Origin: Clostridia bacterium
GTDB taxonomy: Bacteria; Bacillota; Clostridia; Christensenellales; Aristaeellaceae
Direction: 5' to 3'
Length of the DNA: 64,000 nucleotides
Assembly (NCBI GenBank): GCA_017464305.1
Contig: JAFUDS010000024.1
Coordinates: 1 to 64,000, forward strand
The notes below the pieces were generated by a model. That model was not told where the DNA came from. It made no database searches and worked only from the letters and a program-made list of their open reading frames with translations. Of the stretch, positions 192 to 39,655 are shown one piece after another (position 1 is the stretch's first letter; every line of letters begins with the position of its first letter). A program made the position numbers and the translations under genes.

Positions 192-214
192 GGGGATACG
201 ATCCGATCCGGGGA

Positions 215-1846
215 TTACTCCTCGAAGTAAGCGCGGGTCAGATCGAAGGAGGAGTAGCCAAGGGACAGGGTGATGTAGTTCTTCAGCTTCGGGTTAATCA
301 GATAGCTCTTCACAGCCTGTTCCAGCGGGACGACGATGGCGTTGTCAATCAGGTACTGATTGGCCTGACGCAGATGCTCCCAGCGAGCTTCGTAATCCGT
401 GCCGTCCTCAAAGTTCAGCTTGTTGATCAGCTCCGTCAGCTCCTCGCTCTTCCACTGGCCGTGGTTGTGAGCGTAGCTGGTTTCAAACTGATTCGGATAG
501 GAGGTGGGGTCATATTCACCTGTCCAGCCGCCCAGGGCCAGGTCAAACTGATACGCCATCATCTCGTCGAAGCGGACGGAGGAAGGCACGTTGGCCAGGT
601 CGATGGTCAGGCCGGGCAGGTTGGTCTGGTAGGCGGACTGCAGATAGGTACCGATCTTGATGGATTCATCCGTGTCGGAGGTGACCAGCCGCAGGGTGAT
701 TCCCTCCACGCCCAGCTCTTCCAGACCGGTCTTGAAGTAATTCTGAGCCGCTTCCAGATCGAAATAGGTCAGATTGCCAAAGGATTCCGCCACGCTCTCG
801 CCGGTGGGAGAGGCCGCGATGCCGTTGGGAATGGTGCCCACGGTGGGGGCGGCGGTGCCATTCAGCACATCCCGCACCAGCTCTTCCCGGTCAATGCCGT
901 AGAGCAGGGCCTTGCGGATGTTGATGTTCTGCAGGTAGTTGTGGGGATAATCCGGGTTCACCTCGACGGAGTTGATGCCCAGCTCCAGGTTGGTCATCCG
1001 CAGGGTCGGCACATCCACCAGGGCCTCGTCCCCTTCGTACAGCGGCACGAAGTCGCTGGTCAGGCTGACGCCGTCCAGCTGGCCGGCTTCGTACAGGTTC
1101 AGGAAGGTGTTGGCGTCCTTGACGATCAGCACGTTGATCTCGTCGAAATACACATTGTCCTTGTCCCAGTAATAGGGATTCTTGATGTATTTCCAGCTCA
1201 GCTCGGTACCGGTCCAGCCGTCAATGTAGAAGGGTCCGGAACCCAGCAGCGCATCGCTACTCAGGGCATAATTTTCTCCCTTTTCCGCCACGAAGGCCTT
1301 GGAAACGGGGGAGAACCCGGTGTCGCTCAGCTTCTTGACGATGTAAGGATCCGCGGCTTCCAGGGTGATCTCGATCACGGTGTCGCTCAGAGCCTGGATG
1401 CCCAGCTCCTCCACGGCCACTTCCCCAGCCCGAACCTGGGTCGCGTTCTTGATGGGAGCGATGGTGGTCTTCTGAGAGGCCACTTCCGGATCATAAATCC
1501 GCTGCACCGCGTACACTACGTCCTCCGCTACGATCTTTTCGCCGTTGGCGTAGTAGGCATCGTCCCGGATGGTAACCGTCACGGTCAGGCCGTCCTCGCT
1601 GATTTCCGGCAGGGCCACCGCCAGGTTGGGAATCGGATCCGCGTTCTGGTCCAGGCGATACAGGGTGTCCGCGAAATAGAACACCGCCTCACCGGAAATG
1701 GTGTCATAGGTCTTGGTGGTGTCCAGCGTGGTCACTTCCCCGCCGATAAACCAGTTCAGCACCTTCTTTTCCTCCTCAGCGGAGGCGAAGGACACCAGGG
1801 ACAAAATCAGCGCCAGGGCCAGCGCCAGAGACAGAATCTTTTTCAT
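215..1846 (-). CDS. ABC transporter substrate-binding protein, peptide (SBP_bac_5) family
   Basis: 543 residues, the usual length for OppA/DppA-type binding proteins that deliver oligopeptides, or sometimes oligosaccharides, to an ABC importer. It has a signal peptide (MKKILSLALALALILS.. ending in SFASA) with no lipobox cysteine, so anchoring at the surface is unclear. Family features are an early GGEVTTLDT segment, the central YxNGEKIVAEDVVYAVQRI region and a late GWTGEYDPTSYPNQF stretch. No permease or ATPase gene follows inside the window; partners may lie upstream of base 1 or elsewhere. AAGAAGGTG sits at a good distance from the ATG. Its own promoter is visible. The ligand cannot be told from sequence. 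Confidence 0.9.
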   Translation of the reverse strand: MKKILSLALALALILSLVSFASAEEEKKVLNWFIGGEVTTLDTTKTYDTISGEAVFYFADTLYRLDQNADPIPNLAVALPEISEDGLTVTVTIRDDAYYANGEKIVAEDVVYAVQRIYDPEVASQKTTIAPIKNATQVRAGEVAVEELGIQALSDTVIEITLEAADPYIVKKLSDTGFSPVSKAFVAEKGENYALSSDALLGSGPFYIDGWTGTELSWKYIKNPYYWDKDNVYFDEINVLIVKDANTFLNLYEAGQLDGVSLTSDFVPLYEGDEALVDVPTLRMTNLELGINSVEVNPDYPHNYLQNINIRKALLYGIDREELVRDVLNGTAAPTVGTIPNGIAASPTGESVAESFGNLTYFDLEAAQNYFKTGLEELGVEGITLRLVTSDTDESIKIGTYLQSAYQTNLPGLTIDLANVPSSVRFDEMMAYQFDLALGGWTGEYDPTSYPNQFETSYAHNHGQWKSEELTELINKLNFEDGTDYEARWEHLRQANQYLIDNAIVVPLEQAVKSYLINPKLKNYITLSLGYSSFDLTRAYFEE

Positions 1847-36124: not shown

Positions 36125-37729
36125 TTATTTCGCGTATTCGGTGCTGCGGGTTTCGCGAATCACGTTGACGCGAATCTGGCCCGGATACTCCATCTGTTCC
36201 TCGATGGTCTTGGCGATTTCCTTGGCCAGGACCTTGATGCCTTCGTCGTTGACGTCGTCGGGCTTCACCATGATGCGCACCTCGCGGCCGCTCTGGATGG
36301 CATAGCACTTCTCCACGCCATCGAAGCTGTTGGCAATCTCCTCCAGCTTCTCCAGGCGCTTGATGTAGTTCTCCAGGCTCTCCCGCCGGGCGCCGGGCCG
36401 GGCCGCGGAAATGGCATCCGCCGCCTGCACCAGCACGGCTTCCACCGTCTGAGGCTCTACGTCGTTATGGTGGGCCATGATGCAATGCACCACCGCGTCG
36501 CTCTCATGATACTTCTTGGCCAGCTCGGCGCCCAGGGTGACGTGGGTTCCCTCGCTCTCGTGGTCCACAGCCTTGCCGATATCATGCAGCAAGCCCGCGC
36601 GCTTGGCCAGCTGGACGTCCGCCCCCAGCTCCGCCGCCATGAGGCCCGCCAGATGGCTGACCTCGATGGAGTGCTTCAGCACATTCTGGCCGTAGCTGGT
36701 CCGGTACTTCAAGCGGCCCAGGATCTTGACCAGCTCGTGATGAATACCGTGCTGATTGGTTTCGAAAATCGCGTTCTCGCCAGCTTCGCGGATCTGGTTC
36801 TCCACCTCGCGGCGGGCCTTCTCTACGGTTTCCTCGATGCGGGCGGGATGGATGCGGCCATCCATGATCAGCTTTTCCACCGCCATGCGGGCCACTTCCC
36901 GGCGCACCGGGTCGAAGGCGGAAACGATGACCGCCTCGGGGGTATCGTCGATGATCAGATCCACACCCGTGGCCGTCTCCAGGGCCCGGATGTTCCGGCC
37001 CTCCCGGCCGATGATGCGGCCCTTCATATCGTCATTGGGCAGGTTGATAACGCTGACCGTGGTCTCCGCCACATGGTCCGCGGCGCATTTCTGAATGGCC
37101 AGGGCCACGATGTTCCGGGCCTTCTTTTCGCCCTCTTCCTTGGCCTGGGTTTCGATATCCCGAACCATGGCAGCGGCGTCGTGATAAGCGTCGCGCTGGA
37201 CCTTATCGACGATGATCTGCTTCGCTTCTTCCCGGGTCATGGCGGCGATGCGCTCCAGCTCCGCCGTCTGCTTGTCCTTCAACTCCTCCACCTCGGCCCG
37301 CTGGCGGTTCAGGTCCTCTACCTTCTCGTTCAGGCTCTCTTCCCGATCCTCCAGGCTGGAGGCCTTCTTGTTCAGGCTCTCTTCCCGCTTGTTCAGGGTT
37401 TCTTCCCGCTTATCCAGGGTTTCTTCCCTTTGATCCAGATGCCGCTCGCTGCGCTGCACTTCGTTGCGCCGCTCCCGCATCTCTTTTTCGTTTTCCGCTT
37501 TCTCCCGGTCGCTCTCCGCCTTGGCCTTCAGAATTTCTTCCTTCGCCTCCAGCACCTTTTCCTTTTTATAATCCTCCGCCTTTTTGACCGCGTCGTCATA
37601 CAGGCGCTTGGCCATATCTTCCGTCCGGCCAATTTTGTTTTCCACGTAGTTTTTCCGATAGGTATACCCGCCCAAACAGCCGCAGGCTGCAGCCACCAGG
37701 GCAATCAGGATCCATACAATCGGGCCCAA
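36125..37729 (-). CDS. rny: Ribonuclease Y
   Basis: 534 residues from a TTG at 37729: AGGAAGGAGATCAA lies just before it, and the protein then starts (M)[10 protein letters not shown] as in the family. An upstream ATG at 37795 would put 22 odd residues before the membrane helix. Domains: membrane anchor (2-22), long coiled coil (about 25-190, Glu/Lys/Arg-rich with KREESLNKK-type repeats), KH RNA-binding domain ([18 protein letters not shown]) and HD domain ([17 protein letters not shown], near 380). It starts mRNA decay at the membrane in Bacillota. Its transcript begins about 230 bases upstream with a highly structured leader. Confidence 0.96.
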
Positions 37730-37814
37730 TTGATCTCCTTCCTTTCTGTTCAAAATCCAATTCCAAATAATCAGGCATCGACTGAGCCAGGCCATTCAAA
37801 GGCTTGATGGCACG

Positions 37815-37960
37815 ACAAAAAGCCGCGAAGAAAAATCCCGCGGCTGAACGCTGCTTCCAGAAAATCCACGAAAGCCACCCTGAGGAACCTCCTCCGGGCG
37901 AAAAAGCGAATCAAATCTATCGAAAACAGCGAGCGAAGAAGAATCTTCGCTTCAGCCGAT
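37815..37960 (-). ncRNA. Candidate structured leader RNA / attenuator or small RNA ahead of rny
   Basis: About 146 bases from the predicted transcription start to a terminator T tract. On the minus strand, P1 pairs CGGCUGAA (37958-37951) with UUCAGCCG (37848-37841). P2 is the hairpin GCGAAGA/UCUUCGC (37950-37933). P3 pairs CGCUGUUUUC (37931-37922) with GGAAGCAGCG (37858-37849), with CGCCC/GGGUG and GAGGA/UCCUC stems inside. The three helices abut with one unpaired base: a compact three-way junction. The terminator AGCCGCG/CGCGGCU (37845-37839, 37827-37821) plus UUUUUGU uses five bases of P1, so P1 and terminator exclude each other. I do not recognise a known riboswitch class. Confidence 0.65.
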
Positions 37961-37966
37961 CAATTC

Positions 37967-37995
37967 ATACTAATCAAATATTACGAATTTGTCAA
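37967..37995 (-). promoter_or_regulatory. Promoter of the rny leader
   Basis: Minus-strand -35 TTGACA (37990-37995), 17-bp spacer, -10 TAGTAT (37967-37972). The start would fall near 37960, a few bases before the closing stem of the leader RNA. In all, 37730-38237 (508 bases) holds this leader, the promoter, the asnS terminator and the dispersed repeat, with no protein gene. Confidence 0.75.
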
Positions 37996-37999
37996 GAAT

Positions 38000-38063
38000 A
38001 AAATACAAAAATGCGCCGGTTTCGGCGCAGGATGAAGGGGCCCTCCCCCCTGCGGGGGAGGGC
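38000..38063 (-). terminator. asnS terminator preceded by a GC-rich hairpin
   Basis: Reading the minus strand, a perfect 10-bp hairpin GCCCTCCCCC/GGGGGAGGGC (38040-38063) is followed by TGCGCCG-AAAC-CGGCGCA (38012-38029) and TTTTTGTATTTT. The second is a strong intrinsic terminator for the asnS transcript, which would include the dispersed repeat. Confidence 0.85.
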
Positions 38064-38086
38064 TGATATCTCTGCCGTGCGAAGGG

Positions 38087-38225
38087 ATGTTTCACTCTGG
38101 GGCCCTTGGAAGACGTCGGCACTTAGCGGGTGGCGAGCGCTCGCGCGAAGGCAACCGCTTTGTGCCGCTACGTCTGGAACGGAGGCGCGAGCCATGCCCC
38201 AGAGGGGAACTCCCGCGCGCACGCT
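38087..38225 (+). repeat. Dispersed structured repeat, copy 2
   Basis: It matches 1-143 with few changes. Pairings: P1 CTCTGGGGC (38095-38103) with GCCCCAGAG (38196-38204); P2 GACGT+CGGCAC (38112-38122) with GTGCCG+ACGTC (38162-38174), with a two-base bulge; P3 AGCGG/CCGCT (38125-38129, 38155-38159); P4 GCGA-GCGC-TCGC (38133-38144); P5 GGC-GCGA-GCC (38184-38193) with a GNRA loop. The GNRA loop reads correctly only on the plus strand. It lies between the asnS stop and its terminator. It could be a structured RNA, a MITE-like element or a transcript-end element. Confidence 0.8.
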
Positions 38226-38237
38226 TTTTCTATCTCC

Positions 38238-39617
38238 TCAGAAATCGCAATTCATGGGGGTGCGGAAATAGGGGATGACGTCGCGGATGTTCTCCACGCC
38301 TGTGAGATAGATCAGCAGGCGCTCAAAGCCCATGCCAAAGCCCGCATGAGTGCATCCGCCAAACTTCCGCAGATTCACATACCAATACATCTCGTCCTTG
38401 CTGATACCCAGCTCATCCATCCGGGCGGCCAGGCGATCATACCTATCCTCTCTTTGGCTGCCGCCCATGAGCTCGCCAGCCCCGGGCACCAGCAGATCCA
38501 CCGCTGCCACGGTCTTCTGATCCTCGTTCTGATACATATAGAAGGCCTTGATATCCTTGGGCCAGTTATAGACGAACACCGGGCTGTGGAAATATTCCTC
38601 CGTCAGGTACTTCTCGTGCTCCTTGGCCGTATCCTCGCCGTACTTCGGCTCGAACTGGAACTGGGTGCCGTTCTCCATGGCCTTGCGCAGAATGGTGATG
38701 GCCTCCTCATGGGTCACCCGGGCGCAGGTGCTCCCCGCCAGGGCCGTCAGCTTTTCAATCAGGCCGCCGCCGGTAAACTTGTCCAGGAACTCCAACTCAT
38801 CCGGGCATTTATCCAGCACCGTCTGCACCAGGTTCTTCAGGAAATCCTCCTCGATGTCCATCAGCTGGTCCAGATCGCAGAAAGCGATTTCCGGCTCGAT
38901 CATCCAGAACTCCGCCGCGTGGGTCTTGGTGTTGCTGTTCTCTGCCCGGAAGGTGGGCCCGAAGGTATAGATCTTGCTGAAGGCCATGGCAAAGGTTTCG
39001 CCCTCCAGCTGGCCCGTCACCGCCAGAGAGGTGGGCTTGCCAAAGAAATCCTGGGAATAATCCGGATGGTCAGAGGGGGGCAGAGTGGTGACCGTAAAGG
39101 TGTTCCCGGCACCCTCCGCGTCGTTGCCGGTGATCAGGGGCGTATGCACATACACATATCCCCGATCCTGAAAATAGGTATGGATGGCCATGGCCGCCAC
39201 GCTGCGCACGCGGAACACCGCCTGGAACAGCCGGGTCCGGGGCCGAAGATAGGCGATCTCCCGCAGGAATTCCAGAGAATGCTTCTTGGGCTGCAGGGGA
39301 TAATCCTCCGGACAATCCCCCTCCAGGGTGATCTCCTGGGCCTGAATTTCCGGAGTTTCCGGATCCTTATAGCTGGGAACCACCTTGCCCGTCACCTTTA
39401 CGGCACTGCCGATATGGAAGGCCTGGATGCCCTCGTAATTGGCGATCCCGTCATCATACACCACCTGGGGATTCTTAAAGCAGGTACCATCAAAAAAATC
39501 GATAAAACCGATGTTCTTCTGCTTCCGATGATTCCGAATCCAGCCCTGCAAGGTCACCGTCTGGCCCTGCAATTCGCCAAGCCGCTCCTTCAGCTCCCGG
39601 GTGGTAATGATCTCCAT
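38238..39617 (-). CDS. asnS: Asparaginyl-tRNA synthetase
   Basis: 459 residues from an ATG at 39617 with AGGAGG upstream. It has the OB-fold anticodon-binding domain (about 1-110; VTLQGWIRNHRKQKNIGFI) and a class II catalytic core with motif 2 FRAENSNTKTHAAEFWMIE and motif 3 GFGMGFERLLIYLTG. Asn rather than Asp specificity is supported by the FRAENSNT form and the lack of the bacterial AspRS insertion. It charges tRNA-Asn. It has its own promoter, a simple leader without a visible T-box, and a terminator. Confidence 0.96.
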   Translation of the reverse strand: MEIITTRELKERLGELQGQTVTLQGWIRNHRKQKNIGFIDFFDGTCFKNPQVVYDDGIANYEGIQAFHIGSAVKVTGKVVPSYKDPETPEIQAQEITLEGDCPEDYPLQPKKHSLEFLREIAYLRPRTRLFQAVFRVRSVAAMAIHTYFQDRGYVYVHTPLITGNDAEGAGNTFTVTTLPPSDHPDYSQDFFGKPTSLAVTGQLEGETFAMAFSKIYTFGPTFRAENSNTKTHAAEFWMIEPEIAFCDLDQLMDIEEDFLKNLVQTVLDKCPDELEFLDKFTGGGLIEKLTALAGSTCARVTHEEAITILRKAMENGTQFQFEPKYGEDTAKEHEKYLTEEYFHSPVFVYNWPKDIKAFYMYQNEDQKTVAAVDLLVPGAGELMGGSQREDRYDRLAARMDELGISKDEMYWYVNLRKFGGCTHAGFGMGFERLLIYLTGVENIRDVIPYFRTPMNCDF

Positions 39618-39655
39618 AGCTTCCAACCTCCTGGTTCATTTGTCTTGCAGCGGCA

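Follow-up and report, generated by a model that had tools for sequence, protein, structure and literature searches.

The minus strand of the window (the whole stretch of 64,000 nucleotides of DNA analyzed here) carries, ahead of the ribonuclease Y gene rny, a structured leader that we consider likely to be a cis-acting transcription attenuator of this gene, with the closing stem P1 as the antiterminator. The leader RNA probably helps to set the amount of RNase Y. Its anatomy is that of an attenuator: a promoter and an intrinsic terminator stand ahead of rny in the same direction, and the conserved helix P1, which cannot coexist with the terminator, has an invariant core and a seventh pair that covaries. 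An earlier note on this DNA had described a promoter, a P1 of 8 bp, a P2 of 7 bp and a P3 of 10 bp with one spare base, followed by a terminator reusing five bases of P1, and all of these elements are present in the window sequence (Table 1). Its comparison of the geometry with that of riboswitches and attenuators was borne out for the attenuator anatomy and for a structured leader tied to rny.

Table 1. Features of the rny locus in the window, in window coordinates.
Feature	Position	Strand	Remarks
rny (ribonuclease Y)	36125..37729	-	NCBIfam TIGR03319, 762.6 bits; TTG start at 37729 likely
Intrinsic terminator of leader	37817..37845	-	stem-loop 37845-37821, then T run
Leader RNA, 147 nt	37815..37961	-	ends inferred from promoter and terminator; found by covariance models R1 and R2
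P1 3' strand TTCAGCCG	37841..37848	-	last five bases AGCCG (37845-37841), the first five of the terminator, double as terminator 5' arm
P3 3' strand GGAAGCAGCG	37849..37858	-	
Conserved word TCGATAGA beside P3	37916..37923	-	one base different in L004
P3 5' strand CGCTGTTTTC	37922..37931	-	
P2 hairpin	37933..37950	-	7 bp, loop of 4; GCGAAGA 37950-37944 with TCTTCGC 37939-37933
P1 5' strand CGGCTGAA	37951..37958	-	antiterminator strand, 5' end of RNA
Leader promoter	37967..37995	-	TTGACA 37995-37990, 17-nt spacer, TAGTAT 37972-37967; same position in relatives' leaders
Terminator-like hairpin 3' of asnS	38012..38029	-	between asnS and leader; 7 pairs (6 G-C), followed by T run
asnS	38238-39626	-	neighbour on far side of leader from rny

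The leader promoter matches the consensus at 10 of 12 positions and is the sole promoter-like site in 37400-38400 (0.5 expected from shuffles). P1 comprises 8 bp (37958-37951 with 37848-37841), P3 comprises 10 bp, two being G-U, and T37932 is the single spare base at the three-way junction. A37951 is ambiguous, as it can either close P1 or lengthen P2 to 8 bp, the latter being favoured by the energy model. The likely TTG start of rny is preceded by AAGGAAGGAG, and by eye a TTG stands at the same place in some relatives. Strong inverted repeats lie between asnS and the leader (38040-38200, minus strand), among them a hairpin rich in G+C at 38040-38063 and, at about 38090-38180, a larger imperfect palindrome in which GACGT..GGCAC is matched with GTGCCGACGTC.

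The folding energy of the stretch 37962-37810 was -65.3 kcal/mol (z = -3.8), and none of 200 dinucleotide shuffles was as low. P1 is part of the minimum free energy fold of this stretch and the terminator is part of its centroid. For the 147-nt form ending at the T run, the fold with P1 forced had -61.0 kcal/mol versus -62.2 kcal/mol for the fold with the terminator forced, which is also the minimum; the gap is 1.2 kcal/mol.

This competition was compared across leaders selected on a 5' CGGC. Three false pattern hits (L095, L113, L139) were discarded before any count, and 111 leaders were reduced to 91 by removing 20 that share their first 70 nt with another. Two leaders without a terminator call (L128, L142) and one without the CTGTT anchor (L086) were set aside, leaving 88. 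The terminator 5' arm carried GC[CT]G, which was not a selection criterion, in 81 of these 88 leaders versus 13 of the 55 terminator-like hairpins of the window; in the pairing comparison behind this count, the first four P1 pairs are paired by construction. Inspection by eye showed that some of the seven leaders lacking the motif are errors of the terminator finder (L011, L047, L085), and that a few of the 81 are perhaps based on the wrong hairpin (L049, L060). The P1 and terminator folds lay at most 4 kcal/mol apart in 50 of the 81 leaders, with a median of 3.2 in favour of the terminator. The terminator form was the more stable in 73 leaders and P1 was ahead in 8; P1 must therefore win by kinetics or with help.

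Promoter-like sites between the terminator and rny were found in 4 of the 81 leaders by a consensus scan, against 4.1 expected by shuffling, and a second rny promoter after the terminator was dropped as a general feature. The gene upstream of the leader varies: the 64 longest upstream frames fell into 47 clusters, a crude count that may include antisense frames. Taken together, the GC[CT]G overlap, the similar energies of the two folds, the few downstream promoter-like sites and the varying upstream genes argue for cis control of rny by read-through. We infer that rny depends on this read-through and that the read-through is regulated.

The distribution of the element was examined in 45 genomes of the genus, the window's own included. 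A DNA search detected nine short-form loci (100% to 75% identity, E <= 8.6e-28), which align from promoter to terminator. Their invariant words are CGGCTGA, GCTGTTTTC and GGAAGCAGCG, and P2 is variable in both arms. Longer relatives (L010, L011, L013, L014, L031-L035, L038) have the same ends, with extra helices inside P3, and the long forms share the conserved words CCCAAATG, GATCTG and CCGCATA. Most of the conserved inner words are gone from the nine short forms, which have kept P1, P2, the base of P3 and the terminator. Model R2 was built solely from long forms, 14 in number, and finds the short form of the window at E = 9.1e-11. It matched 38 of the 45 genomes, and in all 38 rny directly follows on the same strand. 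Model R1, built on an RNAalifold fold that omits P1, matched 25 of the 45. Among the seven genomes without the element, six assemblies have no rny match (E <= 1e-10) and one has residues 381-534 only, the 5' end of rny being missing. Thus, wherever the 5' part of rny was found in an assembly of the genus, the element was present too.

Significant matches in the genus were found only ahead of rny and, one apparent contamination aside, once per genome. Two weak matches (G034:C172 and G023:C82, E ~0.005) had no rny in the fetched stretch and look like chance. The loci L186 (G006:C160) and L187 (G009:C47) are identical over 2367 of 2367 bases, in genomes of different species, and G006 carries a second rny leader (L174); one of the two contigs is probably a binning contaminant. 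Also, genome G007 is listed as 99% complete, yet it gave no RNase Y match at E <= 1e-10.

The covarying pairs that the earlier note had asked for in P1, P2 and P3 of homologous rny leaders were found in part. They are clear in P2, the seventh P1 pair alternates between U-A and A-U, and outer pairs of P3 change in step. Neither the core of P1 nor that of P3 varies, which puts both outside what covariation can test. In A3 (16 leaders from other genera), 17 two-sided compensatory cells were counted against a shuffled mean of 5.6, with none of 500 shuffles as high, and sliding the partners by 1-3 columns cut the paired cells from 91% to 30-54%. A2 gave 16 such cells against 4.7 in shuffles and A4 gave 79 against 22, each above all 500 shuffles. 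The 36 matches in A4 cover short, long and other-genus forms and are biased toward the model, to which they were fitted; 14 of its sequences were used to build R2. Among its 38 sources, 35 yielded matches (L036, L062 and L138 gave none), and L089 yielded two, the second on the opposite strand. Across A4, pair 7 of P1 is U-A in 14 cases, A-U in 10 and U-G in 1, unpaired in 8 and gapped in 3. The signal of the nine short forms alone is modest (4 two-sided cells versus 1.4; 7 of 500 shuffles as high), and three P2 pairs show two-sided change across them.

The native strands of P3 pair better than the swapped-strand median in 60 of the 81 leaders. The anchors needed for a test on representatives were present in 74 of the 81, and 38 representatives were used. 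Their non-anchor P3 pairs numbered 238, versus a mean of 218.7 and a maximum of 235 in 1000 shuffles; this excess is largely due to a single outer pair (2 of 1000 shuffles), the inner pairs taken singly not exceeding the shuffles. Pair 7 of P1 was above shuffles (7 of 1000), and pairs 5, 6 and 8 were not. As the leader sequences are related, all these shuffles overstate significance. Since the first pairs of P1 and the core of P3 are invariant, covariation cannot test them, and the early part of P1 rests on sequence identity. A strand that needs two pairing partners would be expected to be frozen, which covariation cannot prove.

We propose the following course of events. The RNA would start just before the 5' strand of P1. 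P2 and P3 would fold first, and the emerging 3' strand of P1 would then pair with the 5' end of the RNA. With P1 formed, the 5' arm of the terminator would be sequestered and the polymerase would read into rny. With P1 unformed or opened, AGCCG would pair with the CGGCT that follows, leading to termination and to a free leader of about 147 nt.

What the attenuator would respond to can be proposed more tentatively. By analogy, the most likely signal may be RNase Y itself, an excess of which would bind or cut the leader and thereby favour termination. Three points favour this feedback: significant matches in the genus are confined to sites ahead of rny, RNase Y feedback is known in Bacillus subtilis, and the short form has lost most of the conserved inner words on which a larger aptamer would depend. 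Rather speculatively, RNase Y might even gauge its own spare activity on the nascent leader, a cut separating the 5' antiterminator strand from its partner, so that the terminator forms and transcription of rny stops. If true, this would be a nuclease-triggered transcription attenuation of a nuclease gene, for which the sources covered by our literature searches contained no report.

The usual layout of a riboswitch is a junction closed by P1, with P1 in competition with a terminator. In attenuators and riboswitches that use P1 as antiterminator, such as the adenine ON riboswitch, the closing stem and the terminator share a strand and are mutually exclusive. The closing stem and terminator of the rny leader share a strand in the same way; unlike them, the leader matches no known aptamer class and precedes a nuclease gene. 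The P1-P2-P3 core could be read as the aptamer of a metabolite or ion riboswitch of the ON type for rny, in which ligand binding would stabilise P1; this would be the same attenuator with a different signal. The P1-closed junction, the opposition of P1 and terminator and the conserved unpaired words, e.g., TCGATAGA and those of the long forms, suit this reading. We nevertheless find it somewhat unlikely, as within the genus the element occurs only ahead of rny, the nine short forms do without most of the conserved inner words, and Rfam offers no match. The Rfam 15 covariance models, which include rne5 (the 5' UTR of Escherichia coli rne), gave nothing above the gathering score over a leader, the best score being that of RcsR1 with 17.3 bits versus a gathering score of 60. 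A known Rfam family was therefore dropped as an explanation; the earlier note had likewise recognised no known class. A conserved leader peptide was also dropped, since the length differences among the nine short forms are not multiples of three (by eye) and P1 begins at the 5' end.

Another reading, which we judge unlikely, is that of a passive leader with a fixed leak at the terminator, in which RNase Y feedback would act through mRNA decay only and P1 would mainly shield the 5' end. Decay-based feedback on rny does have a published precedent: in the sections covered, PMC10303841 describes for B. subtilis rny a 164-nt 5' UTR behind a sigma-A promoter and RNase Y feedback, which works through cuts in the UTR and, above all, within the first 100 nt of the coding sequence. 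RNase E of E. coli is likewise described, in the part of PMC10989929 covered, as controlled by feedback in cis through the rne 5' UTR. A passive leader would however leave unexplained the regular overlap between the P1 strand and the terminator arm. A free small RNA acting in trans, with a leaky terminator that incidentally feeds rny, seems very improbable. The earlier note had raised a free RNA of about 146 bases as its alternative, and the leader does have its own promoter and terminator and a compact, stable fold; once terminated, it could also act in trans. This alternative was weakened, as the location of the element did not prove independent of the downstream gene: the significant matches in the genus are one per genome, apart from one apparent contamination, and the linkage to rny holds in 38 of 38 genomes despite differing upstream genes. 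It also has against it that, in the consensus scan, the stretch from the terminator to rny holds no more promoter-like sites than expected by chance.

The cis attenuator that we prefer resembles the B. subtilis rny UTR in being a long leader of the same gene, with RNase Y feedback published there and proposed here by analogy. It differs by its conserved P1, its three-way junction and its terminator; in the sections of PMC10303841 covered, no terminator is described and the first 50 nt of the UTR are 76% A and U. As the feedback in B. subtilis is mRNA cleavage, an attenuation step would be new, and a conserved attenuator ahead of rny, in a Clostridia family of the rumen and gut, would add a second solution, unlike the cleavage-based one. 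As a contrast, the Discussion of the same paper brings up the mRNA-decay mode of the rne 5' UTR. Both the rne UTR and the rny leader are structured leaders whose gene encodes a main endonuclease of mRNA decay; unlike the former, the rny leader has no Rfam match. The rne 5' UTR acts by decay of its own mRNA. Autogenous leaders of ribosomal proteins, such as that of L20, are clade-limited structures, each attached to a single gene with a self-regulating product. The rny leader is likewise clade-limited, structured and tied to one gene, but its target is an endoribonuclease, its self-regulation is putative, and there is no Rfam match. Within the sources covered by our full-text searches, no report of a leader, attenuation or RNA-motif element of rny/ymdA was found. 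A term search of the main text of a 50-genome survey of noncoding RNA (PMC11109978) did not return rny, ribonuclease or Clostridia, and the text of a survey of premature terminators (PMC2965389) did not return ymdA, cvfA, HDIG, RNase or ribonuclease. The element is also a candidate new RNA family, and its 147-nt form is compact enough for a direct test of the signal that is sensed.

Within the family, the length of the leader to its terminator ranges from about 145 to over 400 nt, longer relatives occurring in other genera, and in this size series the core can be told apart from dispensable parts. In a titled collection of uncultured, by their titles mostly ruminant-gut, Clostridia, the best 80 of 404 RNase Y loci were examined. 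The promoter and CGGC start were found in 69 of these 80 best loci, 65 by pattern (counted after removal of three false ones) and four added by hand. Among the first 40 family regions, they were present in 29 and absent in 11 (L046, L058, L061, L063-L070), and rny thus does not need the element everywhere. By eye, L058 and L066 may be diverged relatives. R2 matched 21 of 200 family genomes, 10 of these in the genus, and is insensitive outside it. Among the 11 non-genus matches at E <= 0.01, 9 lie directly ahead of rny; the other two (G166:C46 and G178:C30) have no rny in the fetched stretch and look like chance.

The order collection contains 26 other families, of which 20 were sampled with one rny upstream region each. 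The promoter and CGGC start occurred in none of these 20 regions, and R2 gave weak matches only (best 11.5 bits, E 0.0037, L151). An extension of the element beyond the family was therefore dropped. Four of the family regions without the leader (L061, L063, L064, L067) share a different start region, CTGTTA.., and have short rny leaders of about 85-120 nt in which no terminator was seen by eye, which suggests that the leader core and the terminator may be gained or lost together. In L097, three tRNA genes (192-744, minus strand) lie upstream of a long rny leader, on the opposite strand.
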